DNA of 64,000 nt from Bosea sp. Tri-49 (GTDB lineage Bacteria; Pseudomonadota; Alphaproteobacteria; Rhizobiales; Beijerinckiaceae), in NCBI RefSeq assembly GCF_003952665.1, contig NZ_CP017946.1, positions 1,178,001 through 1,242,000 on the forward strand, in the 5' to 3' direction. Positions 957 to 19,371 of this stretch are shown here, piece after piece (position 1 is the first letter of the stretch; the number at the start of each line of letters is the position of its first letter). The notes beneath the pieces were generated by a model. That model ran no database searches, had not been told where the DNA came from, and was given only the letters and a program-made list of their open reading frames with translations. Both the position numbers and the translations under genes were made by a program.

Positions 957-1952
957 TTATTCGACGACCGCGCCGGAGGCCTTGGCGATCGGCCCCCATT
1001 TCGCCAGCTCGGCCTTGACGTGCTCGCCCAGCGCTTCCGGCGTCGAGCCGACGATGACCGCGCTGACATCCTCCAGACGCTGCTTCACATTGGCGTCCTT
1101 GAGCGATTCATTGGCGGCGCTGTTGATCTTGTCGATCACCGGGCGCGGCATGTTGGCCGGGCCGAACAGCGCGTTCCAGGTATAGGTCTCGTAGCCGGCA
1201 AGCCCGCCCTCAGCGATGGTCGGCAGGTCCGGGAAGGAGGAGACGCGCTCCTTGGTGGTGACGCCGATGGCGCGCAATTGCCCGCTGCGAATGAACTGCG
1301 CCGAGGAGGGCAGGTTGTCGAACATGATCGGCACCGCGCCGGCGACGACGTCGTTGAGGGCCGGGCCGGCGCCGCGATAGGGCACATGGTTCATGCTGAC
1401 GCCGCCGAGCGACTTGAACAGCTCGCCGGAGAGATGCAGCGGCGTACCGACGCCGGAGGAGGCGTAGGAGTATTTGCCGGGGTTGTCCTTCAGCAGCTTG
1501 ATCACCTCCGGCACGGTCTTGGCCGGGAAGCTCGGATGCACGACCATGACGTTGGGCACGACAGCGAGCAGCGAGATCGGCGTGAAGTCCTTGACCGCGT
1601 CGAAGGTCACGGTCTTCAGGATCGCCGGATTGAGCGCGTGGGTCGAGATGGTGCCGAGCAGCAGCGTGTAGCCGTCGGGGGTGGCCCGGGCGACCGCGGT
1701 CGAGCCGATATTGCCACCGGCGCCGGCGCGGTTGTCGATCACGATGGACTGGCCGAGCAATTCGCCCATCTTCTGGCCGACGAGGCGCGCAACGATGTCG
1801 GTCGAGCCGCCGGCGGCGAAGGGCACGATCAGAGAGATCGGCCGCGTCGGGAACTGCGCCTGGGCAAAAGCCGAGCCGGCTGCGCCGGCGAAGGGCAGGG
1901 CGGAGGCGCCGGCGAGGAATCCGCGGCGGCTGAGACCTTCGGTTGTCGACAT
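957..1952 (-). CDS. Tripartite tricarboxylate transporter (Bug/TctC) periplasmic receptor
   Basis: This is an extracytoplasmic solute receptor of the Bug family that would bind a small organic acid in the periplasm. I start it at 1952, where AGAGG precedes the ATG and the product opens with a twin-arginine signal (LSRRGFLAG) followed by an Ala-rich h-region and AFAQA cleavage site. That gives 331 aa, normal for the family. Family signatures are FPTRPISLIVPFAAGGSTD, VIDNRAGAGGNIG and HVPYRGAGPALNDV. No TctA/TctB membrane genes are adjacent, so it is an orphan receptor. The ligand cannot be told from sequence. It converges on lpxB. Confidence 0.9.
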   Translation of the reverse strand: MSTTEGLSRRGFLAGASALPFAGAAGSAFAQAQFPTRPISLIVPFAAGGSTDIVARLVGQKMGELLGQSIVIDNRAGAGGNIGSTAVARATPDGYTLLLGTISTHALNPAILKTVTFDAVKDFTPISLLAVVPNVMVVHPSFPAKTVPEVIKLLKDNPGKYSYASSGVGTPLHLSGELFKSLGGVSMNHVPYRGAGPALNDVVAGAVPIMFDNLPSSAQFIRSGQLRAIGVTTKERVSSFPDLPTIAEGGLAGYETYTWNALFGPANMPRPVIDKINSAANESLKDANVKQRLEDVSAVIVGSTPEALGEHVKAELAKWGPIAKASGAVVE

Positions 1953-2042
1953 GAGCGGTGAACCTCTTTTGTGGGTCGGCGACTGTAGCGTACCAGACGC
2001 AACCGTCATCTGCGTCAGATGCATCAATAAGTTGAAACAATA

Positions 2043-2080
2043 AAGGCCGCGACGGTGTTCCGTCGCGGCCTTGTCTTGAT
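2043..2080 (-). terminator. Rho-independent terminator of gltA
   Basis: Bases 2043-2055 (AAGGCCGCGACGG) pair perfectly with 2060-2072 around a 4-nt TGTT loop, giving a 13-bp stem. Read on the minus strand the hairpin follows the gltA stop by about 20 nt and is followed by TTTATTGTTT, so it terminates gltA. The bases after 2072 on the plus strand (GTCTTG) are also slightly T-rich, but no plus-strand gene ends here. Confidence 0.85.
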
Positions 2081-2094
2081 CGGTGTCGAGCCGT

Positions 2095-3384
2095 TCAGCG
2101 GCGGCCGATCGGCGTGTAATCGCGCTTGGGCGCGCCGGTGTAGAGTTGGCGCGGCCGGCCGATGCGCTGAGACGGATCCTCGATCATCTCCTTCCACTGC
2201 GCGATCCAGCCGACGGTGCGTGCGAGCGCGAACAGCACCGTGAACATCGAGGTCGGGAAGCCCATCGCCTTCAAGGTGATGCCCGAATAGAAGTCGATGT
2301 TCGGATAGAGCTTCTTCTCGATGAAGTACTCGTCGTGCAGCGCGATGCGCTCCAGCTCCATGGCGACGTCGAGCAGCGGATCGTCCTTGACGCCGAGTTC
2401 GGCGAGGACCTCATGCGTGGTCTTCTGCATGATCTTGGCGCGCGGATCGTAGTTCTTGTAGACCCGGTGACCGAAGCCCATCAGGCGGAACGGATCGTTC
2501 TTGTCTTTGGCCTTGGCGACGTATTTCGGGATGTTGTCGACGCTGCCGATCTCCTCGAGCATCTTCAGCGCCGCTTCGTTGGCGCCGCCATGCGCCGGGC
2601 CCCAGAGGCAGGCGACACCGGCGGCGATGCAGGCAAAGGGGTTGGCGCCAGAGGAGCCGGCGAGCCTGACAGTCGAGGTCGAGGCGTTCTGCTCATGGTC
2701 GGCGTGCAAGGTGAAGATGCGGTCCATCGCGCGCGAAAGCACCGGATTGACCTTGTACTCCTCGGCCGGCACCGCAAAGCACATGCGCAGGAAGTTCGAG
2801 GTGTAGTCGAGCGAGTTGAGCGGATACACGAAGGGCTGGCCGATCGTGTACTTGTAGGCCATCGCCGCCAGTGTCGGCATCTTCGCGATCATCCGCATCG
2901 AGGCGATCATGCGCTGCTGCGGGTCGGAGATGTCGGTCGAGTCGTGATAAAAGGCCGACATGGCGCCAACCGAGGCCACCATCACAGCCATCGGATGCGC
3001 ATCGCGGCGGAAGCCCTGGAAGAAGCGGGCCATCTGCTCGTGCACCATGGTGTGGCGCGTGACGCGATAGTCGAAATCCGCCTTCTGCGCAGCGGTCGGC
3101 AACTCGCCGTAAAGCAGCAGATAGCAGGTCTCGAGGAAGTCGCCGTGCTCGGCGAGCTGCTCGATCGGGTAGCCGCGATGGAGGAGGACGCCCTCGTCGC
3201 CATCGATATAGGTGATCTGCGACTCGCAGCTTGCGGTCGAGGTGAAGCCGGGGTCGTAGGTGAACATCCCGGTCTGGCCGTAGAGCTTGCCGATGTCGAT
3301 GACCGAAGGCCCGATCGAACCCGTTTTGACCGGCATGTCGACGGCCTTGCCTTCGACAGTCAACTGGCTGGTAGTTCCGCTCAT
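2095..3384 (-). CDS. gltA: Citrate synthase (type II, hexameric class)
   Basis: GltA condenses acetyl-CoA and oxaloacetate to citrate, the entry step of the TCA cycle, in the cytosol. The 429-aa length matches Gram-negative type II enzymes. The catalytic residues are visible in [17 protein letters not shown] (His), [16 protein letters not shown] (His and Arg) and [10 protein letters not shown] (Asp). The N-terminal beta domain with [22 protein letters not shown] is typical. AAAGGATC lies ahead of the ATG. It stands alone between gltX (269 nt upstream, same strand) and a strong terminator, so it probably has its own promoter in the gltX-gltA gap, although I could not fix one. Confidence 0.97.
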
Positions 3385-3653
3385 GGATCCGATCCTTTCA
3401 GGCTCGTTCTTCAGTCACGTCCCGGCGGACGGAAGCGCCGGTTGCTTGTTGCGTTCCGGCGTCATCCGAACGTCCCACGATGACGGCTCCATGACGGGAA
3501 TGTCGGGGCGGGCAGGCGGGAAGGGGTACATCAGACTGATTTTGAAGCATTTTTTGTGCCGGGCCGGCAGCGGGAGCCGCCGGTCCGCAGCGCGTTGCTA
3601 GACCAATTCCGCGAGGCGTTCAACCGAGCGGCCATTAGCCTTTCTGCGGGCCT

Positions 3654-5072
3654 TCAGGCTGCATCCGCGAGCCGCGCCAGCACTTCGTCGCGGCCGAGGA
3701 CCGCCATCACGTCGAAGAGGCCTGGCGAGGTGGTTTTGCCGGTCAGCGCGGCGCGCAAGGGTTGTGCCACCTGACCGAGCTTGACGCCGCTCTCCTCGGC
3801 GAAATCGCGGATCGCGCTCTCCAGCGGCGGCGGCGCCCAGTCGGCGACGGCCGACAGCTTCTGCGCCAGCTTCGGCATGCGCTGGCGCGCGGCTTCGTCG
3901 AGCAAGGCGGCCGCCTTGGGCTCGAGCGCAAGGGGGCGCTGGGCATAGAGATAGGAGGCGCTGTCGATCAGTTCGATCAGCGTCTTGGCGCGCTCCTTCA
4001 GGCCGGGCATCGCGGCCATCAGCTTGGCTTCCAGTTCCGGGGTCGGCTCAATGCCGATGCCGCGGGGCGGGCCGATTTCCGACCAGATCGCCTTCAGCGC
4101 CGTCATCAATTCGTGATCCGCGGACTCGCGCATATAGAGACCGTTGAGGTTCTCAAGCTTGGCATAGTCGAAGCGGGCCGGCGAGCGGCCGATCGAGGAG
4201 AGGTTGAACAGCTCGATCATCTCCTGCGTGGAGAAGATCTCCTGGTCGCCATGGCTCCAGCCGAGCCGCAGCAAATAGTTGCGCAGCGCGACCGGCAGAT
4301 AGCCCATCGAGCGATAGGCTTCGATGCCGAGCGCGCCGTGCCGCTTCGACAGCTTGGCGCCATCGGCTCCGTGGATCAGCGGGATGTGCGACATGCTCGG
4401 CACCGTCCAGCCGAGCGCCTGGTAGATCTGCGTCTGGCGCGCGGCATTGGTCAGGTGGTCGCTGCCGCGGATGATGTGGGTGATACCCATGTCGTGATCG
4501 TCGACGACGACGGCGAGCATATAGGTCGGGTTGCCGTCCGAGCGCAGCAGCACGAGATCGTCGAGGTTCTCGTTCTGCCAGGTGACGCGGCCCTGGACCT
4601 CGTCCTCGACCACGGTCTCGCCGGTCTGCTCGGCCCTGAGGCGGATCACCGGCTTGACGCCTTCGGGCGCGGTCGCCGGGTCGCGGTCGCGCCAGCGCCC
4701 GTCATAGCGCCACTGCTTGCCCTCGGCGCGGGCTGCTTCGCGCTCCGCGTCGAGCTCCTGCGGCGTCGCATAGCAGTAATAGGCCTTGCCGGCGGCGAGC
4801 ATTTGCTCGGCGACCTCGCGATGGCGCGCGGCGCGCTGGAACTGGTAGACGGTCTGCCCGTCCCAATCGAGGCCGAGCCAGGCGAGGCCGTCGAGGATTG
4901 CGGCGATCGCGCCCTCGGTCGAGCGTTCGCGGTCGGTATCCTCGATGCGCAGCAGCATCTTGCCGCCATGGCGGCGGGAATAGAGCCAGTTGAACAGCGC
5001 GGTGCGGGCACCGCCAATGTGCAGGAATCCGGTTGGCGACGGCGCGAAGCGCGTGACGACCGTATCGCTCAT
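3654..5072 (-). CDS. gltX: Glutamate--tRNA ligase
   Basis: This class I aminoacyl-tRNA synthetase charges tRNA(Glu). In alphaproteobacteria lacking GlnRS it may also mischarge tRNA(Gln) for GatCAB. The HIGH-type motif is HIGG at residues 18-21 within [13 protein letters not shown], and the KMSKS-type motif is KLSKR at 240-244. Total length is 472 aa, as usual. The C-terminal anticodon-binding helices follow. Many Hyphomicrobiales carry two gltX copies; only one is in this window. It is transcribed away from comEC (159-nt divergent gap) and towards gltA. Confidence 0.96.
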
Positions 5073-5231
5073 GAAAACAGGCTCCGGGGGAACGGGCAGG
5101 CAAAAAGGCGAGGGCGGGCTGCAATGCGGGCCTCGGCCGGGGCTGACATCCGGCGCCGCCGCTGTAACATGGCTTGCCAGCCGCCGTTAAGAGCCTCCTG
5201 TGGGGACGGGCTCACCATTCGCGCGGTGGCG

Positions 5232-7511
5232 ATGGGGGGACGGATGCTCTCCTACGGGCCAGAAGAGCGCCGTAGCAGGGGACGTGCCGGCGTGCTGGCT
5301 CTGCCGGCGCGACTGCGCCGCGTCGGTGGCTTCGCCTGGCCCGAAGTCCTGCCGTTGCACGAATGGGGTAGTCGGTTTCGCCAGTCCCTCGAAACCGAGG
5401 TCGAGCGGCGGCGTCTTTTCAACTGGCTGCCGGTCTGTATGGGCGCCGGTGTGCTGCTCTATTTCCTGGCCGATCGCGAGCCTGGGCTGGCCGCTCCCCT
5501 GGTCGGGCTGATCCTGTGTGCGCTCGCCGGTTGGCTGACGCGCCGCCGCCGTGCCGTCATGGCGGTCTGCATTGCAGCCGCAGCCGTCTTTGCCGGTTTC
5601 GCGGCGGCAGCCTGGCGAACCGCCGGCATCGCCGCCCCCGCGTTGGCGCGGAACCATGTCGGCAAGCTTACCGGCTTCGTCGAGGCGCTGGAGCAGCGCG
5701 AGAAGGGCGTGCGGATCGTCGTGCAGGTCACGGACCTACCGGGGATCGAGGTTGCGCAGAGGCCGCGGCGGGTGCGCGTCACCACGCCGGTGACGACGCT
5801 GAGGCCCGGAGACCATATCAGCGCGACGGCGCGTCTGTTGCCGCCGCCCGGCCCGGCGCGTCCTGGCGGCTATGACTTCGCCCGCGATGCCTTCTTCCAG
5901 GGCATCGGCGCCGTCGGCAATATCGCCGGCAAAATCACGCTTACACCGGCGCCGACCCCGATGCCGCGCCGGCTCGCTTTGGCGGTCGCGATCGACCAAG
6001 CTCGCAACGCATTGACCGAACGCATCGCGACCAGTGGTGGCGGGCAGGCTGGGGCGATGGCGGCGGCGCTGGTCACCGGCAAGCGCGGACTGATCAGCGA
6101 AGCGACCAACAACGATCTGCGCGCCGCCGGCATCTACCACATCGTTTCGATCTCGGGCCTGCACATGGTGCTAGCCGCCGGCACGATCTTCTGGCTGGCG
6201 CGGGCTCTGCTCGCGCTGTCGCAGACAGCGGCACTCTACTGGCCGGTGAAGAAGCTCGCGGCGCTCGCCGCCATGGCCGGTGCGACCGGCTATTGCGTCT
6301 TCTCCGGCGCGGAGGTCGCGACGGTGCGCTCGCTGATCATGACGCTGGTGATGCTCGGGGCGATCCTGGTCGATCGGCCGGCGCTCTCCATGCGCAATCT
6401 CGCGCTCGCTGCGATCATCGTGCTGCTGCGCGAGCCGGAAGCCGTGCTCGGGCCGAGCTTCCAGATGTCATTCGGGGCGGTCGCGGCGCTGATCGCCTTC
6501 GCTGAACGGTGGCAGGAGCGTCCGCCCGACGCCGCTGCCGCATCCTGGCCCTGGCCGCTGCGCCCGCTCTGGCTCTCGGCCGTCGGTATCGTGACCACGA
6601 CCATGGTCGCGACCGCGGCAACGGCGCCCTATGGTGTCTTCCACTTCCAGACCTTCAACCCGTTCGGCCTGCTCGGCAACGCGCTGGCACTGCCCTTCGT
6701 CTCGCTGATCGTGATGCCGGCCGCCGTCTTTGGCGTGCTCGCCTATCCGTTCGGGCTCGACTGGCCGGCCTGGGCGCTGATGGGATGGGCGTCGGGCCTC
6801 GTGCTCCAACTCGCCCATTGGGTCGCCGGCATCGACCGCTCGACCGTCGTGCTGCCGGCCTTCGGCTCGCTCGCCCTGATCCTGTTCTCGCTGTCGCTGC
6901 TATGGCTGACCTTGTGGACAACGGCGCTGCGCTTCCTCGCCGCACTGCCGCTGGTCGGCGGACTGGCGCTGGCCTCGGCACCGTCGCGGCCGGACATCCT
7001 GATCGAGCGCGACGGTTCCGGCGTGCTGGTACGTGGGCCGGAGGGGAAGATGGTGCTCGCCGGCAAGCCGAGCCGCTTCGTGCTGACGCAATGGCTGCAT
7101 GCTGACGGCGATTCGCGGTCGCCCGACGATACGGCCTTGCGTGAAGGCGCTGCCTGTGATTCCCGCGGCTGCGTCATCCGCCTGCCGGACGGCCGCAGCG
7201 TCGCTTATACGCGCGACCGCTTCGCTTTGGTCGAGGACTGCCAGCGGGCCGACCTCGTGGTGACGTCGCTCTATTGGAGCGCGCCCTGCGCCGCCCGGCT
7301 GATCGACCGCAGCGCGCTCATCCGCGATGGCGCGACCGCCTATCATGCCGCCCGCGGCAGTTGGCGCGCCTATACGGCCGATGAGGCCGCGCGCCTGCGC
7401 CCATGGACCCGTGCGCGGCCGGAACCGAGGCCGGCACCCGAATCAACATCTGCGCCGGCAACTGCAGCAGCAGTTGCGGAGCCGGCACAGGATCTGGAGG
7501 CGCTTCAGTAG
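5232..7511 (+). CDS. comEC: ComEC/Rec2-family DNA-uptake channel protein
   Basis: A multi-spanning inner-membrane protein of the ComEC family, which carries single-stranded DNA into the cytoplasm during natural transformation. An N-terminal pair of hydrophobic segments is followed by a DUF4131/OB-like region (residues about 140-230), then the Competence domain with the signature [10 protein letters not shown] at residues 303-312 and about eight further membrane segments. The C-terminal part (from about residue 590) is soluble but has no HxHxDH metal-binding motif, so the metallo-beta-lactamase domain found in many ComEC proteins is absent or degenerate. The start is uncertain: ATG 5232 and ATG 5244 (GGGGGGA just upstream) are both possible, as is 5169. 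The stop overlaps that of lexA by 7 nt. Confidence 0.88.
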
Positions 7512-11878: not shown

Positions 11879-12496
11879 TCAGGCTGTCGCGGAAAGGGCG
11901 GCTTTGTTGGTCTGGCGCGACCATCGCTGGGCGAGATCGAGGAAATTGCGCAGGATCGTTGTCCCGTGCTCCGAGGCGATGCTCTCGGGATGGAACTGCA
12001 CGCCATGCACCGGCAGGTCGCGATGCGACAGCGCCATGATCATCCCGTCGCCGGATTCGGCCTCGATGGAGAGCTCAGCCGGGCAGCTCTCGCGCCGGAT
12101 GACGAGCGAGTGATAGCGCGTCGCCTCGAGCGGGCCGTTGACGCCGTGGAACAGGCCGCGCGCCCGGTGGGTGATGGTCGAGACCTTGCCGTGCATCGGC
12201 AGGGGCGCGCGCACCACTTCGCCGCCGAAGACCTGGCCGATGGTCTGCAGGCCGAGGCAGACGCCGAAGATCGGCTTCCTGTCAGCGCCTTCGCGGACGA
12301 GATCGAGGCAGATGCCGGCCTCGTTCGGCGTGCAGGGGCCGGGCGAGAGCACGATCGCGTCGTGATCGCCGGTAAGGGCCCGATCGACTGACAGCGTGTC
12401 GTTACGGCGCACGTCGACTTTGGCGCCGAGCCCACCGATCAGGTGGACCAGGTTCCAGGTGAAGCTGTCGTAATTGTCGATCAGCAGGATGCGCAT
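11879..12496 (-). CDS. trpG: Anthranilate synthase component II (glutamine amidotransferase)
   Basis: TrpG releases ammonia from glutamine for TrpE. It is a class I glutamine amidotransferase of 205 aa beginning [18 protein letters not shown]. The catalytic triad is visible as Cys in [16 protein letters not shown] and His/Glu in [23 protein letters not shown] is the oxyanion-region segment. The open frame continues upstream of the chosen ATG without family similarity. Its partner trpE is about 12 kb away at 24836, with an accessory block in between. Confidence 0.96.
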
Positions 12497-12535
12497 CGCT
12501 TCGGGGCCGTCCCCACCCAGTTTCTTGGGTTTTGC

Positions 12536-12564
12536 ACATGCCCCCGAACGCGCATGCCGGTCAA
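12536..12564 (-). promoter_or_regulatory. Possible promoter of trpGDC-moaC-moeA
   Basis: On the minus strand TTGACC (12564-12559) is followed after 17 nt by GCATGT (12541-12536), about 40 nt before the trpG start. The -35 is good and the -10 weak. It lies just downstream of the large hairpin at 12568-12600, so trpGDC would start afresh here. This is a pattern match only. Confidence 0.35.
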
Positions 12565-12567
12565 GCG

Positions 12568-12600
12568 CGAGGGCGCGGAGCAGGTTGCTCCGCGCCCTCG
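12568..12600 (-). terminator. Strong hairpin after the DUF1579 operon
   Basis: A perfect 15-bp stem (CGAGGGCGCGGAGCA, 12568-12582, pairing with 12586-12600) has a 3-nt loop. On the minus strand it begins 30 nt after the DUF1579 stop. No T-run follows on either strand, so it is not a textbook intrinsic terminator. It may act with Rho, protect 3' ends, or be a remnant palindrome. Confidence 0.5.
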
Positions 12601-12630
12601 ACAGATGGTCGTCCGTGTCGACGGATGGGG

Positions 12631-13164
12631 TTACTTCACGCGCCGGTAGTGCGCCGTCATGAACTGTTGCCACCCCCCGTCGGCATCCTTGGTCCGCGAG
12701 GACAGGACGTGATGGTCGGCGCTCTTGATCTCGACGATGTCCTGGTAGGCCGCGATCGCGCCGGGCTTCGAGAAGTCCGGACCTTCGGTGTCGAGGGTCA
12801 GCACTGTGCCAGCAGCGTCGCGGGTGCCGATGTAGACCCATTGGTTGCCCATCATCGAGCCGATGAAGGAGCCGACATAGCGCTCCTTCTGCGGGTCGTA
12901 GCCGAGCGTCATCCGGGTCGTGGCCGGACTACCGTCCGGCAGGGTGCCGGTGCCGTCGCCGACGAGCCAGAGCCCGCCAAAGGACGAGAACGACTGCGTG
13001 CCGGTCGACTTCATCGGCGGCTGGTCAGGGCCCATCAGGCATTCGGCCTCATAGGTCCATTCGCCGACGAGCTGGAGGAGCCATTCATGCTCCGCCTGGG
13101 GCTTGGTCATGCAGGCGCTCATGTCGTTGGCTTGGGGCTTCTCGCGTTCTGCTGCATTGCTCAT
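12631..13164 (-). CDS. DUF1579 family protein
   Basis: A 177-aa soluble protein with the DUF1579 pattern: EWLLQLVGEWTYEAEC near residue 30, GLWLVGDG, MTLGYDPQKERYVGSFIGSMM and a C-terminal HYRRVK. The fold is probably a lipocalin-like barrel; no biochemical function is established for the family. A perfect AGGAGG precedes the ATG at 13164. It is the last gene of a four-gene minus-strand operon (VOC, DoxX, SRPBCC, DUF1579) with gaps of 102, 33 and 53 nt. Genes of these families often travel with YCII/ECF sigma genes. Confidence 0.85.
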   Translation of the reverse strand: MSNAAEREKPQANDMSACMTKPQAEHEWLLQLVGEWTYEAECLMGPDQPPMKSTGTQSFSSFGGLWLVGDGTGTLPDGSPATTRMTLGYDPQKERYVGSFIGSMMGNQWVYIGTRDAAGTVLTLDTEGPDFSKPGAIAAYQDIVEIKSADHHVLSSRTKDADGGWQQFMTAHYRRVK

Positions 13165-13217
13165 GGTTCTTCCTCCTTGGCTTTGCTTCTCTGGGTGGAC
13201 AGTCGAATGCGCCGTGG

Positions 13218-13769
13218 TCAGGCCGCGGCAGCAACCAGTTGCGGCCGTTCCGTTGCCTGCTTGAGGGCGGCGAGGCCCTTCTCGAAATCGCCGCCAACCA
13301 TGCGGTCCATGTTGAAGATCGTGCCCATGACCTTACCCATGAACGGGCAGGCGCCCTGCATGTGCCAGGTCACCAGCGTGCCGCCTTCAGCGGGGGCGAG
13401 GGTGAAGGTGATCAGGTTGTGGCAGGCCATGGGCTTGGTCATGTCGAGGGTGACAGCGAGCTTCACCGGCGCCTGGACCTCGACGATGGCGAGTTCGCCG
13501 GTGCCGGCCTGCTTGTTGCCGTCGAAGGCGTAGACGGCGCCGACGCCGGAGGTCGCGCCCTTGAAGCTGCGCTTCATCGCCGGATCCTTCTTCTCATAGG
13601 GTGACCAGACACCCCATTCCTGGAAGTCCGCGAGCAAAGCGAAGACGCGCTCGGGCGTCGCCCGGATCGTCGCGGAACGGCTGACCTGGAAAAGATCGGG
13701 CTTGCGTGCGGCGACAATGAGGAGGCCGGCGACAAGGGCGAGCATGGCGATGGCGAGATAGGTAAGCAT
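13218..13769 (-). CDS. Membrane-anchored SRPBCC (polyketide cyclase/START-like) protein
   Basis: A 183-aa protein with one N-terminal membrane segment (about residues 2-22, MLTYLAIAMLALVAGLLIVAA) and a SRPBCC domain starting VSRSATIRATPERVFALLADFQEWGVWSPYEK. The domain forms a hydrophobic ligand pocket; here it would face either the cytoplasm or the periplasm next to the membrane. The ligand is unknown. GGAGAG lies ahead of the start. It lies between DoxX and DUF1579 in the same operon. Confidence 0.88.
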   Translation of the reverse strand: MLTYLAIAMLALVAGLLIVAARKPDLFQVSRSATIRATPERVFALLADFQEWGVWSPYEKKDPAMKRSFKGATSGVGAVYAFDGNKQAGTGELAIVEVQAPVKLAVTLDMTKPMACHNLITFTLAPAEGGTLVTWHMQGACPFMGKVMGTIFNMDRMVGGDFEKGLAALKQATERPQLVAAAA

Positions 13770-13802
13770 GGCACTCTCCTATGTGTGGGATGGGTTTGAG
13801 GC

Positions 13803-14222
13803 TCAGGCGTCTAGACGGACGGGGATCAGGCGGCGCAGCCGCGGATCGCGCAGATAAAGACCGCCCCAGGCCAGAAGGCCGAGATAGAGGCCGAAGAGGA
13901 GATGGCTGAAGAGCGGGCTGCCGACGCGCAGATGCGTTGCCATCGCGCCGCCGAGCAGGCCGGTCAGCAGGATCGCGCCGAGCACCGACGTGCGCGGCAG
14001 GGCATAGAGCAGGGCGATGCCCAGCGTCATCACACCGAGCCCACGCGCCAACTCCTGCGAGCCGGAATAGCCGAGCTGCTGCATGGTCTCGGTGACGATG
14101 GCGAGCGGCGCGAGCTTGATGCCGCCATCGAAGACCAGGAAGGCGACGACGAGGCCGCTCATGATGCGCCCGATCCAGAGCTGTCCGGCCGGCGTTTTGG
14201 TGTTCAGGGTGTCGGACAGCAT
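13803..14222 (-). CDS. DoxX family membrane protein
   Basis: An integral membrane protein of 139 aa with four predicted helices (LWIGRIMSGLVVAFLVF; LGVMTLGIALLYAL; VLGAILLTGLLGGAMATHL; LLFGLYLGLLAWGGLYL). DoxX-like proteins are linked to thiol and redox stress in some bacteria, but the family is diverse. The start at 14222 (MLSDTLNTKT) has GGAG at a good distance; an upstream ATG at 14243 is less likely. It lies in the VOC-DoxX-SRPBCC-DUF1579 operon. Confidence 0.88.
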   Translation of the reverse strand: MLSDTLNTKTPAGQLWIGRIMSGLVVAFLVFDGGIKLAPLAIVTETMQQLGYSGSQELARGLGVMTLGIALLYALPRTSVLGAILLTGLLGGAMATHLRVGSPLFSHLLFGLYLGLLAWGGLYLRDPRLRRLIPVRLDA

Positions 14223-14324
14223 GGAATGCTCCGCTGGGTGCAAGGCTCCGCCGGTCCGGCTGCGAGGGCAGCCGGATGGGGATGCATGACGATGTGAATG
14301 GCGCCGGCTGCCCGGCGTCGATGC

Positions 14325-14750
14325 TTACTTGGCGGCCGAGACCAGGGCCCAGAGCATGCCGAACGGATCGCGGTACTGGCCGTAGCGGTCGCCCCAGAAC
14401 ATCAGGTCGACCGGGGTGACGACCTCCATGCCGGCCTCGACGCCGCGCTTCCACCAGAAGTCGATGTCATCGACGCGCAGGGTCAGGGTGAAGCCCTGCG
14501 GCTTCTCCCAGCCATAGCCGTGCTCGGGATAGGGGTCGCTCAGCATCAGCGAGCCGCCATTGACATAGAGGTGGATGTGCATGGTCCGGCCCTTCTCGTC
14601 GACCGGCATGCGCGCCACTTCCTGCGCGCCGAACGCCTTCTGGTAGAATTCCGAGGCCTTCACAGCGCCTTCGACGCTGAGATAGGCGACGACGCCGCCG
14701 CGGGTTTCGGGCTCGGCGCGCGTCTGAATGGCTTCTGCAGGCTGGGACAT
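14325..14750 (-). CDS. PhnB-like VOC family (glyoxalase/bleomycin-resistance fold) protein
   Basis: A 141-aa protein of the vicinal-oxygen-chelate superfamily, PhnB/YkcA-like branch: VVAYLSVEGAVKASEFYQKAFGAQEV opens the first beta-alpha unit, and FGMLWAL closes the second. Metal ligands are not conserved in this branch as clearly as in true glyoxalases. The ATG at 14750 has GGAG 9 nt upstream. It is the first gene of a four-gene operon, divergent from marR at 14975. Two possible promoters lie upstream, one overlapped by MarR-type palindromes and one of the ECF type. Confidence 0.88.
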   Translation of the reverse strand: MSQPAEAIQTRAEPETRGGVVAYLSVEGAVKASEFYQKAFGAQEVARMPVDEKGRTMHIHLYVNGGSLMLSDPYPEHGYGWEKPQGFTLTLRVDDIDFWWKRGVEAGMEVVTPVDLMFWGDRYGQYRDPFGMLWALVSAAK

Positions 14751-14824
14751 TGTCGAACTCCGAGGTCGGGTTGGCAGGGTTTCGTCTGAGATTCGGGCCG
14801 GCGTATCCGGTGATCTGCGACGAG

Positions 14825-14851
14825 GACGTTGGCGGTCCGGGCATTCCGACA
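14825..14851 (-). promoter_or_regulatory. ECF-type promoter motif upstream of the VOC operon
   Basis: On the minus strand TGTCGG (14851-14846), 17 nt, then CGTCCTCG from 14828. The same motif with the same spacing precedes the DUF899 gene (16417-16443) and the YCII-sigma operon (18141-18167). The first gene starts 75 nt further on. I read it as a target of the ECF42-like sigma factor encoded at 16485. Confidence 0.65.
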
Positions 14852-14887
14852 AGGCGAGTGAAATTATTTTCGCGCCGCCGGTCCGGT

Positions 14888-14911
14888 ATTTATCTTGATG
14901 GCAAGATAAAT
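14888..14911. promoter_or_regulatory. MarR-type operator 1 (palindrome)
   Basis: ATTTATCTTG (14888-14897) and CAAGATAAAT (14902-14911) form a perfect 10-bp inverted repeat with a 4-nt spacer. Its core TCTTGATGGCAAGATA is nearly the same as operator 2, whose centre is 28 bp away. It lies in the gap between the VOC operon and marR and covers the -10 of a sigma70-like promoter pointing at the VOC gene. Autorepression and control of the divergent operon are inferred. Confidence 0.75.
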
Positions 14912-14932
14912 CCGATATTGTCTTGATGTCAA
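14903..14932 (-). promoter_or_regulatory. Sigma70-like promoter of the VOC operon
   Basis: On the minus strand a perfect TTGACA (14932-14927) is followed after 18 nt by TATCTT (14908-14903). The -35 lies in operator 2 and the -10 in operator 1, so a bound MarR dimer at either site would block RNA polymerase. Confidence 0.55.
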
Positions 14933-14934
14933 GA
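14921..14934. promoter_or_regulatory. MarR-type operator 2 (palindrome)
   Basis: TCTTGA and TCAAGA (14921-14926, 14929-14934) flank TG. With the flanking bases it reads TCTTGATGTCAAGATA, matching operator 1 at 15 of 16 positions. It overlaps the -35 hexamer of the VOC promoter and lies 41 nt before the marR start. Confidence 0.75.
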
Positions 14935-14974
14935 TATCTTCATGATGCCCGCGACTTGATCAGCGGAGGCCGGG

Positions 14975-15502
14975 ATGAGCGATGATGCAGGGCAGGGTGG
15001 CGACCATATCGACCGGTTGCGTGGGCAATGGCGGAGCGAGTTGCCGGAGCTGGATACCTCGCCCATGGCGGTGATCGGCCGGGCGCGCCGGATCACGCTG
15101 CGGCTGCGGCCGGGGATCGAGGCGGTTTTCGCCCGCCATGGTCTCGATGCCGGCGAGTTCGACGTGATTTCGACGCTGCGACGGTCCGGCGCCCCGTGGC
15201 GACTGACGCCGACCGAGCTCTACCGCACGCTAATGATCTCCTCGGGCGGGCTGACGGCCCGCCTCAACCGACTGGAGGCGGCTGAGCTGATCCGGCGACG
15301 CGAGGCCGAAGAAGACAAGCGCAGCCTGCTGGTCGAACTGACCGAGGCCGGCCGCGCCAAGGCCGAAGCGGCGTTTCGTGAGGATATGGCGTTGGAGAAG
15401 CGCCTGCTCGCGGGCTTGAGCGCGCGCGAGCAGGAGGAGTTGGCGGTGCTGCTACGCAAGCTCGCGCTCAGCCTGGAGGGCGAAGGCGCCGGTGCGAGCT
15501 AG
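14975..15502 (+). CDS. MarR family transcriptional regulator
   Basis: A 175-aa winged-helix regulator. The DNA-binding part is LTPTELYRTLMISSGGLTARLNRLEAAELIRRR (about residues 75-107), with the wing EEDKRSLLVELTEAG. Flanking helices would form the dimer interface. MarR proteins usually bind palindromes near their own promoter and release on binding a phenolic or oxidant signal. Two matching palindromes occur just upstream (14888-14934), between this gene and the divergent VOC operon. Its last 4 nt overlap the convergent DUF899 gene. The signal is unknown. Confidence 0.92.
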   Translation: MSDDAGQGGDHIDRLRGQWRSELPELDTSPMAVIGRARRITLRLRPGIEAVFARHGLDAGEFDVISTLRRSGAPWRLTPTELYRTLMISSGGLTARLNRLEAAELIRRREAEEDKRSLLVELTEAGRAKAEAAFREDMALEKRLLAGLSAREQEELAVLLRKLALSLEGEGAGAS

Positions 15503-16281
15503 CTCGCGGCCGGTGCGTGGCAGCAGGCCGTTGCTGCTTCCTCGCGCCAGCGCCCGGTCATGTCGGTCTTGCCGGGGGTGTCGTAGCGGTCGTGCGGGCG
15601 GACCCAGTCGGTCAGATTGCCGGCCGGGCCGGTCTCGTTGCGGCCCTTCGGTGTCATATCGAGGAACATGTAGGTGCCGAGCACCTCTTCGGCGCCACGG
15701 CCGAAGGTCGAATAGGTCTGGTAGATTGCTCCGTCGCCATCCTTCTCGAGGACGGTGAAGCCGGAAAGGTCCTCCAGCGGCGCGGCGATCGTCTCGAAAT
15801 TGTAGAAGACGTCGTTGTTGGCGAGCTGCTCCGGGGTGAAGGAGACGTCGAAATCGTAGTTGAAGTCGCTGCCCTGGGACGAGACCCAGTGGAAGCGCCA
15901 GCCCATGCGGTTCTTATAGGCCTCGATCTCGGCGAGCGGCGCGCGCGCCACTGCGACATAGGCGACGTCGTGGCGTTCGAGATGCCTCAGCACGCCGTCG
16001 ACATGGTCGGCCTCGAAGGAGCAGCCGACGCAGCCCTCGATCTGGCCGGGCGCGAGCATGAAATGCTTGACGATGAGCTGGCTGCGGCCGCGGAAGAGCT
16101 CGGAGAGCGTCTGCTTTCCCATCGGCGTATCGAAGACGTAAGCCTTCTCGATCCGGATGCGCGGCAAGGCGCGCCGCTCGGCGGCGATCGCATCGCGCCG
16201 TCGCGTCAGCTCCTTCTCCTTGACGAGCAGGGCCTTGCGGGCGGCGATCCAGTCTTCCTTGCTGACGGTGATCTGCGACAT
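15499..16281 (-). CDS. DUF899 (thioredoxin-like fold) family protein
   Basis: A 260-aa DUF899 protein. It opens with VSKEDWIAARKALLVKEKELTRRRDAI, typical of the family, and has the region LIVKHFMLAPGQIEGCVGCSFEADH with a CVGC pair in the thioredoxin-like position, plus a HWVSSQGSDFNYDF block. A redox role is likely but not shown. GAGGAG lies ahead of the ATG at 16281. It is downstream of the ECF42-like sigma gene on the same strand with a 203-nt gap that contains an ECF-type promoter motif, so it is probably transcribed on its own by that sigma factor. Confidence 0.87.
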   Translation of the reverse strand: MSQITVSKEDWIAARKALLVKEKELTRRRDAIAAERRALPRIRIEKAYVFDTPMGKQTLSELFRGRSQLIVKHFMLAPGQIEGCVGCSFEADHVDGVLRHLERHDVAYVAVARAPLAEIEAYKNRMGWRFHWVSSQGSDFNYDFDVSFTPEQLANNDVFYNFETIAAPLEDLSGFTVLEKDGDGAIYQTYSTFGRGAEEVLGTYMFLDMTPKGRNETGPAGNLTDWVRPHDRYDTPGKTDMTGRWREEAATACCHAPAAS

Positions 16282-16416
16282 GGTCGGTCTCCTCGCTGCA
16301 ATGGCCGCTTTCGATCCTGAGAATCAGGATTCTGAAGCAAGCTGTTGTCATCGACGAGCTTTCGGCTCTGGCCAGATCTGGCCGATGCCATCCGCTCGTC
16401 GCCCCTTTGGAGCAAG

Positions 16417-16443
16417 GACGAACGAGCGGGTGCGGTGCCGACA
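16417..16443 (-). promoter_or_regulatory. ECF-type promoter motif upstream of DUF899
   Basis: On the minus strand TGTCGG (16443-16438), 17 nt, then CGTCCTTG from 16420. It is 136 nt before the DUF899 start and 41 nt after the end of the sigma gene. The hexamer, spacer length and CGTCCT core are the same as at 14825-14851 and 18141-18167. Confidence 0.65.
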
Positions 16444-16484
16444 CCGCGCTCAGAAAAGTTTTCAGCGGCGATCCGTCGTCGGCT

Positions 16485-17750
16485 TCAGCCGGTTGCGACC
16501 TGTCCTCTCTCGCGCATCAGCCGGTCGATATGCTGGCGGATATGGGCCGCTTCGCTGGCCGAGCCCGCCAGCGCGATGGCGCGGTCGAAGGTCGTCCGCG
16601 CCTCGCGGTCGCGGCCGAGCTGCATCAGCAGCCAGCCCTTGAAGCCGAAGAAGTAGAAATAACCCGAGAGCGCCTGCTCCAATGGTTCGACCATCGCGAG
16701 CGCAGCTTCAGCCCCGCGCAGCTTGGCGATCGCGACGGCGCGGTTGAGCGTGATCACCGGCGAGGGCTGGATATGCTCCAGCGTGGCGTAGAGGATGTCG
16801 ATCTGGGCCCAGTCGGTCTGGTCTGCCTGCGCCGCGCGACTGTGGACGCCGGCGATCGCCGCCTGGATCTGGTAAGGGCCGGGCCGGCGGTGGCGCATCG
16901 CCTTGTCGACCAACGCCAGACCCTCGGCGATCATCTCGCGGTCCCAAAGCGAGCGGTCCTGTTCTTCGAGCAGGATGATCTGACCACTCGCGTCGAGCCG
17001 TGCCGCGGTGCGGGCGTGCTGCAGCAGCATCAGCGCCAGCAGCCCCATGATCTCCGGTTCGGTCGGGAACAGCCGCAGCAGCAGCCGCATCAGCCGGATC
17101 GCCTCCTCGCTGAAGGGGCGGCGGCGGTCGCTCTCCGCGCCGCTGGCCGAATAGCCCTCGTTGAACACGAGGTAGAGCATCGCCGCCACCGCCGCGAGGC
17201 GCTCGGCGCGCTCGACCGGGCCGGGCGTCTCGAAGGGCACGTTGGCAGCGGCGACCCGGCCCTTGGCGCGGGTGATGCGCTGCTCCATTGCGCTCTCGCC
17301 GACGAGGAAGGCGCGGGCGATCTGCTTGACGGTGAGGCCCGAGACGATGCGCAAGGCGAGCGCGACCTGCTGCGTCGCCGGCAAATCGGGATGGCAGCAG
17401 ATGAACAGCAGGCGCAGGATGTCGTCGCGGTAATGGCCGCCGTCGAGCCGCTCGGCGACCTCGCTCTCGGCATCGCCGAGATCGGAGAGCCTGTCCTCAT
17501 CGGGCAGGGCTTCCTGCTTCTTCTGCCGCCTGACCTGATCGAGCGCGACATTGCGGCCGACGAAGATCAGCCACGCGGCCGGATCGCGTGGCGGCCCGTT
17601 CTGCGGCCAGGTCCGAAGCGCCCGGAGGCAGGCCTCCTGATAGGCCTCCTCGGCGATGTCGAGATCGCGGAAATAGCGCAGCAGGGCGCTGATCGCCTGA
17701 GGGCGCGCCGAGGTCAGCGCCGCATGGATCCAGGCGATCTCGGCCATCAT
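16485..17750 (-). CDS. RNA polymerase sigma factor, ECF42-like with C-terminal TPR extension
   Basis: A 421-aa sigma factor, far longer than standard ECF proteins (about 190 aa). Region 2 lies near residues 20-85 (AEEAYQEACLRALRTWP, PAAWLIFVGRNVALDQVRR) and region 4 near 115-175 (QQVALALRIVSGLTVKQIARAFLVGESAMEQRITRAKGR). From about residue 190 a helical extension (LYLVFNEGYSAS, AIAGVHSRAAQADQTDW, TLNRAVAIAKLRGAEAAL) is the TPR-like part typical of group ECF42. This group is not paired with an anti-sigma factor but with a DGPF/YCII protein, and exactly such a gene precedes it: its stop and the ATG at 17750 share one base (TGATG). Targets are suggested by three shared promoter motifs nearby. 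Confidence 0.92.
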   Translation of the reverse strand: MMAEIAWIHAALTSARPQAISALLRYFRDLDIAEEAYQEACLRALRTWPQNGPPRDPAAWLIFVGRNVALDQVRRQKKQEALPDEDRLSDLGDAESEVAERLDGGHYRDDILRLLFICCHPDLPATQQVALALRIVSGLTVKQIARAFLVGESAMEQRITRAKGRVAAANVPFETPGPVERAERLAAVAAMLYLVFNEGYSASGAESDRRRPFSEEAIRLMRLLLRLFPTEPEIMGLLALMLLQHARTAARLDASGQIILLEEQDRSLWDREMIAEGLALVDKAMRHRRPGPYQIQAAIAGVHSRAAQADQTDWAQIDILYATLEHIQPSPVITLNRAVAIAKLRGAEAALAMVEPLEQALSGYFYFFGFKGWLLMQLGRDREARTTFDRAIALAGSASEAAHIRQHIDRLMRERGQVATG

Positions 17751-18115
17751 CAGACTCCGGCCGGATAGTAGACGGCGAGCGGACGGACCTCGAAGGCGCC
17801 GCCAGGGTTGGCTTCGCCGAGCTCGCGCGCGATGCCGAGCGCCTCGTCGAGATCGGCGACGTCGACGATGTAGAAGCCGAGGAACTGCTCCTTGGTCTCG
17901 GCGAAGGGGCCGTCGATGATCAGCGGCGGATCGCGATCCTTGCGCAGGGTCGTCGCCGCCGTGGTCGGCAGCAGCCGTGCGACCGGGCCGAGCTTGCCTT
18001 CCTTGGCGATGCGCTGGCGGATCTTTTCGAGGCGGCCCATCACCTCCTCGTTCTGCTCCTTCGACCAGGCCATGACGACCTCTTCGGAATGATAGCAAAG
18101 GATGGCGTAGTGCAT
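17750..18115 (-). CDS. YCII-related (DGPF domain) protein, partner of the ECF42-like sigma factor
   Basis: A 121-aa protein with the YCII-like ferredoxin fold: MHYAILCYHSEE at the start and LIIDGPFAETKEQFLGFYIVD in the middle, containing the DGPF motif that names the family. DGPF proteins are the standard neighbours of ECF42 sigma genes and are reported as members of their regulons; their biochemical role is unknown. GGAG lies 9 nt ahead of the start. It is translationally coupled to the downstream sigma gene, and an ECF-type promoter motif sits 26 nt upstream. Confidence 0.92.
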   Translation of the reverse strand: MHYAILCYHSEEVVMAWSKEQNEEVMGRLEKIRQRIAKEGKLGPVARLLPTTAATTLRKDRDPPLIIDGPFAETKEQFLGFYIVDVADLDEALGIARELGEANPGGAFEVRPLAVYYPAGV

Positions 18116-18140
18116 GCGCGGCGCTCCGGTTCAGGCCAAG

Positions 18141-18167
18141 GACGTTCGGCCGGGCCGGCAGCCGACA
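18141..18167 (-). promoter_or_regulatory. ECF-type promoter motif upstream of the YCII-sigma operon
   Basis: On the minus strand TGTCGG (18167-18162), 17 nt, then CGTCCTTG from 18144. Same motif as the two other sites in the block. Its place directly upstream of the sigma operon suggests autoregulation. Confidence 0.68.
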
Positions 18168-18204
18168 ATCGCGGAGCAAAAAAATCAAGCTGCCTCGATA
18201 TTCC

Positions 18205-19371
18205 CTAAACCAAGTCATCCCGGGCGACCGAAGGGAGACCCGGGATCCATGCCTGAGCCTCTCCTGCGAAGGCTCCGGAATGGACCCCGGATCTCCGCTT
18301 CGCTGCGTCCGGGATGACGATGTGGGAGAAGAAGGGGCTAAACGACCGGCGGATTGAGCCGGGCAAAGCCCTCCTGGCGATGATAGGGAAGGCCGGGTAG
18401 GGCGGAACCGTGGCGCTCGCCTTGTCGAGCCGGGCGATCTGCTCCGATGTCAGGGACCAGCCGATGGCGCCGAGATTGTCGCGCAATTGCTGCTCGTTGC
18501 GGGCGCCGATGATCACCGAGGCGACGGTCGGGCGCTGCAGCAGCCAGTTGATCGCGATCTGCGGCACGGTTCTGCCGGTCTCCTTGGCGAGTTCGTCGAG
18601 CACATCGACGATGGCATAGAGCTTTTCGTCGTCGACCGGCGGGCCGAAATCGGCGGTCTGGTGCAGGCGGCTGCCTTCGGGCAGCGGCTGGCCACGGCGG
18701 ATCTTGCCGGTGAGGCGGCCCCAGCCGAGCGGGCTCCAGACGAGCGCGCCGACGCCCTGGTCGAGGCCGAGCGGCATCAGGTCGAACTCGTAGTCGCGGC
18801 CGACCAGCGAATAATAGACCTGATGGGCGACATAGCGCGGGAAGCCGTGCTTCTCGGCCAGCGCCAGCGATTTCATCAATTGCCAGCCGGCGAAATTGGA
18901 GACGCCGACCTGGCGAATCTTGCCGGCGCGGACCAGCGCGTCGAGCGTCGAGAGCACCTCTTCGATCGGCGTGAAGGCGTCGAAAGCATGGAGCTGGAGC
19001 AGGTCGATATGGTCGCTGCCGAGTCGGCGCAGCGCCGCTTCCGTGCCATCGATCAGCCGGCTGCGCGAGGAGCCGGCGTCGTTCGGGCCGTCGCCCATTG
19101 GCAGAGTCAGCTTGGTCGAGATCAGCACCTTGTCGCGCCGGCCCTTGATCGCGGCGCCGAGGATCTCCTCGGAGGCGCCGTTCGAGTAGACATCGGCGGT
19201 GTCGAACAGGTTGAGCCCGGCCTCCAGGCAGATGTCGATGAGGCGGGTCGCTTCCTTGGCGTCGCTGGTGCCCCAGTTGCTGAAGAGTGGGCCCTGGCCG
19301 CCGAAGGTGCCGGCGCCGAAACTGAGGGCGGGAACCTTGAGGCCGGAGCGGCCGAGATATCTGTAGTCCAT
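18205..19371 (-). CDS. Aldo/keto reductase with frameshifted, repeat-derived C-terminus
   Basis: An NADPH-dependent oxidoreductase of the aldo/keto reductase superfamily (TIM barrel). It starts MDYRYLGRSGLKVPALSFGAG; the catalytic Asp and Tyr are in NLFDTADVYSNG, the Lys in LISTKLTLP and the His in DLLQLHAFD. The body is normal to about residue 328 (PPYPAF). From there the frame is off by one: the other frame would read HRQEGFARLNPPVV and stop at 18338, a typical family ending. The encoded frame runs on instead through the palindromic repeat at 18214-18318, adding about 45 residues of non-family sequence (388 aa in all). The frameshift lies near 18385-18387. It is either a real mutation or a one-base sequence error. 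It is in an operon with the upstream MFS gene (34-nt gap). Confidence 0.85.
   Translation of the reverse strand: MDYRYLGRSGLKVPALSFGAGTFGGQGPLFSNWGTSDAKEATRLIDICLEAGLNLFDTADVYSNGASEEILGAAIKGRRDKVLISTKLTLPMGDGPNDAGSSRSRLIDGTEAALRRLGSDHIDLLQLHAFDAFTPIEEVLSTLDALVRAGKIRQVGVSNFAGWQLMKSLALAEKHGFPRYVAHQVYYSLVGRDYEFDLMPLGLDQGVGALVWSPLGWGRLTGKIRRGQPLPEGSRLHQTADFGPPVDDEKLYAIVDVLDELAKETGRTVPQIAINWLLQRPTVASVIIGARNEQQLRDNLGAIGWSLTSEQIARLDKASATVPPYPAFPIIARRALPGSIRRSFSPFFSHIVIPDAAKRRSGVHSGAFAGEAQAWIPGLPSVARDDLV
18214..18318. repeat. Palindromic dispersed element (copy 1)
   Basis: The outer arms GTCATCCCGG (18214-18223) and CCGGGATGAC (18309-18318) are perfect complements. Inside, two further arms (CGAAGGGAGACCCGGGATCCA and the complement of TGGACCCCGGATCTCCGCTTCG) match with few differences, and GAGCC/GGCTC close the centre. 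It belongs to the same family as the outer element at 21628-21846 and the element at 48633-48765. It is translated as the tail of the frameshifted aldo/keto reductase. Confidence 0.8.

Follow-up and report, generated by a model that had tools for sequence, protein, structure and literature searches.

Which factor reads the bipartite motif that stands before three transcription units of Bosea sp. Tri-49, and is its use confined to them? The units lie in a window of 64,000 nt, the whole stretch of contig NZ_CP017946.1 analysed here (positions 1,178,001 to 1,242,000, forward strand; coordinates below are window positions), and one of them encodes a sigma factor of the extracytoplasmic function (ECF) type. 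ECF42 is a widespread group of such sigma factors. A preliminary description of the window had reported three exact minus-strand copies of the motif with unrelated 17-nt spacers, read them as ECF42-type promoters of a local, undescribed stress-response regulon, and suggested scanning the whole genome and the orthologous loci. Our analysis indicates that RNA polymerase with the ECF42 sigma encoded at 16485-17750 very likely uses the three motifs as promoters, as part of a dispersed regulon of small genes of detoxification type.

The motif was searched in a long form (TGTCGG-N17-CGTCCTYG, 31 nt) and a core form (TGTCGG-N17-CGTC, 27 nt). Exact copies of the long form were confirmed on the minus strand at 14851-14821, 16443-16413 and 18167-18137, all with 17-nt spacers that are mutually unrelated. 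The core forms and the sigma operon are listed below, with a start site predicted by analogy with the mapped SMc01149 promoter of Sinorhizobium meliloti (PMC6180224).

14825..14851, minus strand: predicted ECF42-type promoter of the VOC-DoxX-SRPBCC-DUF1579 operon; exact motif, -35 TGTCGG, N17, -10 CGTC (CGTCCTCG)
~14816, minus strand: predicted transcription start of the VOC operon
16417..16443, minus strand: predicted ECF42-type promoter of DUF899; exact motif, predicted start ~16408, leader ~127 nt
18141..18167, minus strand: predicted ECF42-type promoter of the YCII-sigma operon; exact motif, predicted start ~18132
17750..18115, minus strand: YCII (DGPF) protein of 121 aa, opens the sigma operon; PF03795, E=2e-16
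16485..17750, minus strand: ECF42 sigma factor, 421 aa; PF04542 (E=9.4e-13), PF08281 (E=8.8e-9) and PF20239 (DUF6596)

Three exact matches in the window compared with none in 100 dinucleotide-preserving shuffles. With up to two mismatches allowed, the window gave four matches, a count reached by 10 of the 100 shuffles; significance was lost, and therefore the exact form alone is informative. This ordinary mismatched count speaks for chance matches in GC-rich DNA, against which stand the exact count and the spacer specificity, conservation and genome-wide ECF42 link given below. The chance explanation was accordingly dropped as having a negligible probability.

The window sigma was assigned to ECF42 by its sigma2 and sigma4 domains, a TPR-type extension, the adjoining YCII/DGPF gene, the lack of an anti-sigma gene nearby and TGTCGR-N17-CGWC upstream of its own operon. 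The YCII translation contains the DGPF motif (IDGPFAETKEQ), its stop codon overlaps the sigma start (TGATG), and it has a solved structural relative in 1s7i (PA1349). The sigma C-terminus forms a long TPR-like extension, and TPR folds were among the best structural matches of the predicted model m04e1c24b69cc. A Pfam scan of ten genes around the sigma revealed no anti-sigma gene, and no Pfam match to a SnoaL-like extension, the hallmark of ECF41, was found in the sigma at E<=0.001. Among the NCBIfam matches listed, the sole one above its cut-off was sigma70-ECF, for the sigma.

The suggested scan of the Bosea genome (6.45 Mb, two contigs) gave eight sites for TGTCGG-N17-CGTCCT against none for the reversed control, and seven of the eight were called intergenic, before genes; the looser TGTCGG-N17-CGTC gave 23 against 9. 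When the spacer was varied from 4 to 30, 88 matches were obtained, 8 of them with N17. Spacers in the same codon frame gave high counts (N6 6, N9 1, N12 8, N15 11, N18 4, N21 9, N24 8, N27 2, N30 10), probably a coding signal, and the other 17 out-of-frame spacers gave 21 matches together (mean 1.2). Four further sites lie 22-46 nt before distant genes: 46 nt before a PF06983 VOC-type gene (L001), 41 nt before a glutathione S-transferase (GST) gene (L002), 29 nt before the gene of an 87-residue membrane-like protein with no Pfam match (L003) and 22 nt before an MFS transporter gene (L008). Relatives of the GST and of the 87-residue protein stand behind the same motif in G272, the other Bosea genome of the sample. 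The regulon therefore appears to be dispersed over about seven operons of the Bosea genome, and the purely local regulon first proposed was abandoned.

Loci nearest to the region around the sigma gene were 90-95% identical and mostly from Bosea, and the eight closest (L032-L039) were compared as the Bosea group. The motif stands before YCII in 8/8 of these loci, before DUF899 in all three where DUF899 was found, and before the SRPBCC-DUF1579 operon in 7/8 (L037 has no exact copy). Boxes and spacing are retained as genes come and go: strains differ in whether the SRPBCC-DUF1579 operon begins with VOC, DoxX or SRPBCC, and L033 (8314) keeps a DUF899-type promoter where the DUF899 gene was not found, with the next motif 192 nt further. 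The same comparison bears on a rival reading, in which the sites are not promoters but are bound by a conventional regulator (repressor or activator), such as a MarR protein. A MarR gene and MarR-like palindromes do adjoin one of the three sites, yet the palindromes lie 37-85 nt upstream as a distinct sequence. Six of the eight Bosea-group loci gave no MarR gene, and in all of them the motif precedes YCII; the mapped S. meliloti start lies 9 nt after CGTC (PMC6180224). We consider such a binding site extremely unlikely.

The motif also follows the sigma outside Bosea. In 80 sigma-relative loci (1.16 Mb), 128 TGTCGG-N17-CGTC sites were found against 0-21 for every other spacer from 8 to 27, and five scrambled, reversed or complemented N17 patterns gave 23, 2, 14, 1 and 1; at least one site was present in 79 of the 80 loci. 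We then used 297 genomes of the order, divided by family PF20239 into 140 with (ECF42+) and 157 without (ECF42-) this sigma. The ECF42+ genomes held 274 sites in 72/140 genomes and the ECF42- genomes 21 sites in 20/157, while at least two sites occurred in 54/140 and 1/157, respectively. The Fisher value of the link was 5e-13, which overstates independence, the genomes being related. The reversed control was flat (12 sites in ECF42+ and 11 in ECF42- genomes), and hence genome size or composition is an unlikely cause.

A described counterpart is RpoE10 of S. meliloti, an ECF42 sigma whose gene lies behind the YCII gene SMc01151. Its overexpression raised six genes, four of them at least 2-fold, in the operons SMc01149-SMc01148 and SMb20475-SMb20474, and the SMc01149 start 9 nt after CGTC was mapped by RNA-seq and 5'-RACE (PMC6180224). 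The S. meliloti orthologue is 69% identical to the window sigma and carries E at the position of E156 (MEQR). In strain Ak57 the SRPBCC gene is preceded by TGTCGG-N17-CGTCCTTG and YciI by TGTCGG-N17-CGTC, with an A/T tract at each. By Pfam, the SRPBCC target is AHSA1, a family that recurs behind the motif in other genomes, and SMb20475 is PF06983, the family of the Bosea L001 target too. The two regulons thus share the orthologous YCII-sigma pair, the gene order YCII-sigma-SRPBCC, TGTCGG-N17-CGTC promoters and separate operons (PMC6180224). Unlike the RpoE10 regulon, that of Bosea takes in DUF899, DoxX, DUF1579, GST, MFS and a small membrane protein; a MarR gene adjoins one of its promoters, and the genome encodes a further ECF42 that belongs to a different subtype. 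The idea of an undescribed system therefore had to be given up, since the two-operon RpoE10 regulon has the same boxes (PMC6180224). A multi-operon TGTCGG regulon is already described in one relative, and the Bosea gene set, its breadth and the A/T tract are additions. The reading of the sites as ECF42-type promoters is supported by the spacer, the ECF42-genome link and the S. meliloti mapping.

Other ECF systems resemble this one to different degrees. ECF42 of Streptomyces venezuelae and ECF-10 of Pseudomonas putida likewise have a long TPR-type extension, a nearby YCII gene and no anti-sigma nearby (PMC8999054, PMC6180224), but the window sigma belongs to an E156/TGTCGG subtype. The motif might instead belong to a different ECF group whose promoter is similar, such as ECF41 (for example RpoE9; TGTCAC-N17-CGTC at SMb20029), which has in common a C-terminal regulatory extension, the TGTC and CGTC boxes and the spacing (PMC6180224 Table 1, PMC8999054). 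ECF41, however, has a SnoaL-like extension, a -35 TGTCAC and a carboxymuconolactone decarboxylase target (PMC6180224, PMC8999054). Bases 5-6 of its -35 box are AC, not GG, the site counts follow PF20239 presence, and the TGTCGG operons are listed under RpoE10, not RpoE9 (PMC6180224 Table 1). An ECF41-type origin of the sites is hence highly improbable.

A third element accompanies the two boxes at all three window promoters and at three S. meliloti promoters:

14861..14870, minus strand: A/T tract (AAAATAATTT) of the VOC promoter, possible UP element
16454..16462, minus strand: A/T tract (AAAACTTTT) of the DUF899 promoter, upstream of the -35 box
18178..18185, minus strand: A/T tract (ATTTTTTT) of the YCII promoter, upstream of the -35 box

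In 181 distinct upstream windows, from candidate ECF42-operon promoters picked by TGTCNN-N17-CGNC alone, the A+T fraction was 0.66-0.91 at each position from -18 to -10 before the -35 box, with a peak at -14, and 0.56 at -9; outside the tract it was 0.31-0.49 further upstream and 0.19-0.44 between the tract and the -35 box. A typical tract reads AAAATTTTTT. Its position fits a UP element, probably contacted by the alpha subunit. The term 'UP element' does not occur in the main text of PMC6180224. Within the literature compared (open PMC), the A/T tract, the split between TGTCGG and TGTCGA promoters and the tracking of -35 bases 6 and 5 by sigma4 residues 156 and 157, both described next, are new.

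Own-operon promoters were sought 250-1200 nt upstream of the sigma in 171 ECF42 loci, a sample in which near relatives of the window sigma weigh heavily (80/171). TGTCGG was found in 101, TGTCGA in 38 and neither in 32; no locus had both in this range, and over a wider range L334 also has TGTCGG-N17-CGAC at -237. Residue 156 lies with Q157 in the sigma4 helix (152-169 in model m04e1c24b69cc), where the two residues stand opposite R and S in an alignment with the solved sigma 6in7. It is E in 101/101 TGTCGG sigmas and A, G or S in 38/38 TGTCGA sigmas, the only helix-turn-helix column that separates them fully. In a tree built without the recognition-helix columns, 116 E156 sigmas, the window sigma (RpoE10-like subtype) included, formed one clade with a support of 0.999, and L404 was the sole E156 sigma outside. 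The motif follows this subtype, not ECF42 at large: of the 24 single-copy genomes fetched (one ECF42 gene each), five with E156 held seven sites (in 3/5 genomes), and the 19 carrying another subtype held no TGTCGG-N17-CGTCCTYG site. The -35 box of Streptomyces ECF42 is TGTCGA. The TGTCGA-like box named in the preliminary description belongs to other ECF42 subtypes, one of which is present in Bosea as a paralogue. A third class, TGTCGT-N17-CGAC with alanine at 156, was seen in L260, L267, L282, L285 and L296, and for four ECF42 sigmas of other proteobacteria (L404, L400, L456, L459) a promoter of the same shape was not found. A single sigma2 residue setting -10 CGTC versus CGAC was also sought and rejected, as the best column, position 47, separated 17 CGAC from 41 CGTC sigmas poorly (Jensen-Shannon 0.64).

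For the residue-base relation, -35 bases 5 and 6 were left free, an A/T tract was required and the range was set to 330-2300 nt upstream, which gave a promoter for 155 of 244 distinct sigmas. Residue 156 paired with base 6 as E-G in 96/96 and Q-G in 1/1, and with A, G, S or Y at 156 base 6 was A in 50, T in 7 and G in 1. Residue 157 paired with base 5 as Q-G in 151/151, A-G in 2/2 and K/R-C in 2/2; L403 (K157, TGTCCA) has no A/T tract and was left out of this count. With L403 included, the combination of K/R157 with C5 appears at three separate places in the tree; L427 adjoins a sister with Q157 and TGTCGA. L383 (Q156, TGTCGG) sits within an A/G156 clade (support 0.979). Seven E156 sigmas that lack an exact site were inspected by eye: GG stands at bases 5-6 in L251, L297, L101, L311, L108 and L055, and no promoter was seen in L404. 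The rules were then fixed (E or Q156 giving G6) and applied to 51 sigmas counted as new (L461 is the same gene as L400; range 250-1400 nt, which like that of 330-2300 nt deviates slightly from the written rule), 12 with a usable promoter and 39 without. The 157 rule was right in 12/12 and the 156 rule in 11/12, the exception being L455 with Q156 but TGTCGA; the sample held no E156, and E-to-G was outside its scope. The link between residue 157 and base 5 is well supported. That between residue 156 and base 6 is suggestive, because E156 arose mainly once and many other columns mark the same clade, so that ancestry may account for it. As a whole we propose tentatively, and at slightly less than even confidence, that residue 157 sets base 5 (Q-G, K/R-C) and residue 156 sets base 6 (E-G; A/G/S/Y-A/T), by which paralogues sharing TGTC...CGTC, the spacing and the A/T tract as third element would stay insulated, each with its own detoxification-type genes. 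ECF specificity is said to have been rewired through residue-base covariation by Todor et al. in PNAS in 2020, so a code of this kind is not new in principle. If the code is true, single substitutions at 156 or 157 should re-aim an ECF42 sigma; the avoidance of cross-talk between paralogues would be accounted for, and sequence would suffice to match a promoter with its sigma.

This relation also bears on the second ECF42 sigma of the Bosea genome, encoded on G000:C1 near 5.14 Mb, where it follows a RibD_C gene and two tandem YCII paralogues:

L244 (G000:C1:5138000-5147000), 1736-5379: second ECF42 locus; TGTCGA-N17-CGAC before RibD_C and upstream of the YCII pair

This paralogue could in principle read the three window promoters in place of the window sigma, as it belongs to the same ECF42 group and its sites have the same spacing and a -10 CGAC near CGTC. 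Against this, its own two upstream sites are TGTCGA-N17-CGAC, the 19 single-copy genomes with an A/G156 sigma hold no TGTCGG-N17-CGTCCTYG site, and TGTCGG pairs with E156 in 96/97 cases among the 155 own-operon promoters, the exception being the Q156 sigma L383. Reading by the paralogue is therefore very unlikely. In the genome, TGTCGA-N17-CGWC gave 36 sites against 19 for the reversed control, a signal too weak to list paralogue targets beyond the two at its own locus.

Downstream genes were examined at 137 sites, namely 8 own sites and those from 130 of the 295 order-wide sites that were fetched (L124 duplicates an own site); 127 of the 137 lie in ECF42+ genomes. An open reading frame (ORF) with coding score begins at most 230 nt downstream at 120/127 of the latter, and in ECF42- genomes 7/10 sampled sites fall within genes. 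Families were defined as BLAST clusters, each named from the Pfam match of one representative. The largest were VOC (23 sites in 16 genomes), YCII (21 in 20), DUF899 (9 in 9) and RibD_C (8 in 6), followed by AHSA1 (7 sites), DUF1428 (5), MFS (5), Ble-like VOC (4), SDR (4), SRPBCC, DoxX_2, SMP-30 and DoxX (3 each), six more pairs (GST included) and singletons. The recurrence of VOC, YCII, DUF899, RibD_C, AHSA1, DUF1428, DoxX, MFS, GST and SDR, all families of small-molecule handling, behind one promoter in many genomes of the order argues for a common task. One local motif thereby becomes a family-wide, testable regulon.

Several observations weigh against assigning the motif to the window sigma and its relatives. 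A simple gene caller put 30 of the 127 ECF42+ sites within genes; as a group these have a similar A/T peak at -15 to -11 (0.60 vs 0.68), and some look like over-extended ORFs. The own-genome site L007, within a gene, is probably chance. An exact site is lacking from 68/140 ECF42+ genomes, and among single-copy E156 genomes from G213 and G287, whose own promoters deviate by eye (TGTCGG-N17-CGTT and GGTCGG-N17-CGTT); 19 of the 24 single-copy genomes checked carry another subtype. Five of the seven single-copy E156 sites were called intragenic (2/4 in G211, both in G158, one in G004), and this count of 7 against 0 is soft, given the crude gene caller. The Bosea regulon is read from sequence, and activity of the sigma on a promoter is shown experimentally in S. 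meliloti alone (PMC6180224). There, expression of SMc01151, the YCII gene that precedes rpoE10, did not rise on RpoE10 overexpression (PMC6180224), and autoregulation may therefore fail. The preliminary claim that all three units are under an ECF42-type sigma is thus supported, while switching of the sigma gene together with them is doubtful.

Under control by the window sigma, its sigma4 domain would read -35 TGTCGG and sigma2 the -10 CGTC, and the A/T tract, 9-18 nt ahead of the -35 box, would probably dock the C-terminal domains of the alpha subunits. A protein partner acting through the TPR-like extension at the C-terminus would probably set its activity, and the co-expressed YCII protein is the obvious candidate for this role. 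The active sigma would then turn on VOC, DoxX, SRPBCC, DUF1579, DUF899, GST, MFS and the PF06983 VOC-type protein, small cytoplasmic and membrane proteins that seem suited to dealing with small toxic metabolites or xenobiotics.

The remaining genes of the locus, whose first assignments (YCII, ECF sigma, DUF899, VOC, DoxX, SRPBCC and DUF1579) agreed with Pfam, and the adjoining features are as follows.

15499..16281, minus strand: DUF899 protein; PF05988 E=2.8e-89, GCVGC in translation
14325..14750, minus strand: VOC/glyoxalase-superfamily protein; PF00903
13803..14222, minus strand: DoxX-like membrane protein; PF13564 (DoxX_2)
13218..13769, minus strand: SRPBCC (Polyketide_cyc2) protein; PF10604, N-terminal hydrophobic segment by eye
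12631..13164, minus strand: DUF1579 protein, final gene of the VOC operon; PF07617 E=2.4e-58
12568..12600, minus strand: 15-bp perfect hairpin between DUF1579 and trpG, possible operon end
14975..15502, plus strand: MarR-family regulator, divergent from the VOC operon; PF12802
14888..14936, no strand assigned: two MarR-operator-like palindromes, 14888-14911 (perfect 10-bp arms) and 14918-14936
14932-14903, minus strand: sigma70-like TTGACA-N18-TATCTT under the palindromes, pointing at VOC; pattern match

The DUF899 protein, which we take to be thioredoxin-like, has no solved relative by sequence at E 0.01. Its start lies 135 nt after CGTC (16281-16417), similarly in L034, L037 and L039, and the distance is shorter, 10-76 nt, at eight sites of other genomes. 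An Rfam scan of 12400-18400, the DUF899 leader included, gave nothing at the gathering threshold. The hairpin at 12568..12600 has no T run and is absent from the terminator-scan listing.

The MarR gene and the operator-like palindromes are a possible second, independent input on the VOC operon. The palindrome stretch and MarR are both kept in L032 and L035, the only two of the eight Bosea-group loci where MarR was found. The sigma70-like match is weak alone (1 in 6 kb vs 0.7 expected from shuffles). MarR-controlled VOC/DoxX operons exist, such as Bacillus catDE, which resembles this one in its combination of DoxX, VOC and a MarR-type regulator; Bosea adds the ECF42 promoter. At 18205-18320, separating the aldo/keto reductase gene from the YCII promoter, inspection by eye showed a stretch resembling a palindromic repeat (ATCCCGG...CCGGGAT). 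The reductase frame (388 aa) enters this repeat and only its first 329 aa align in L035 and L038; the reductase C-terminus thus looks as if it was made by insertion of the repeat.

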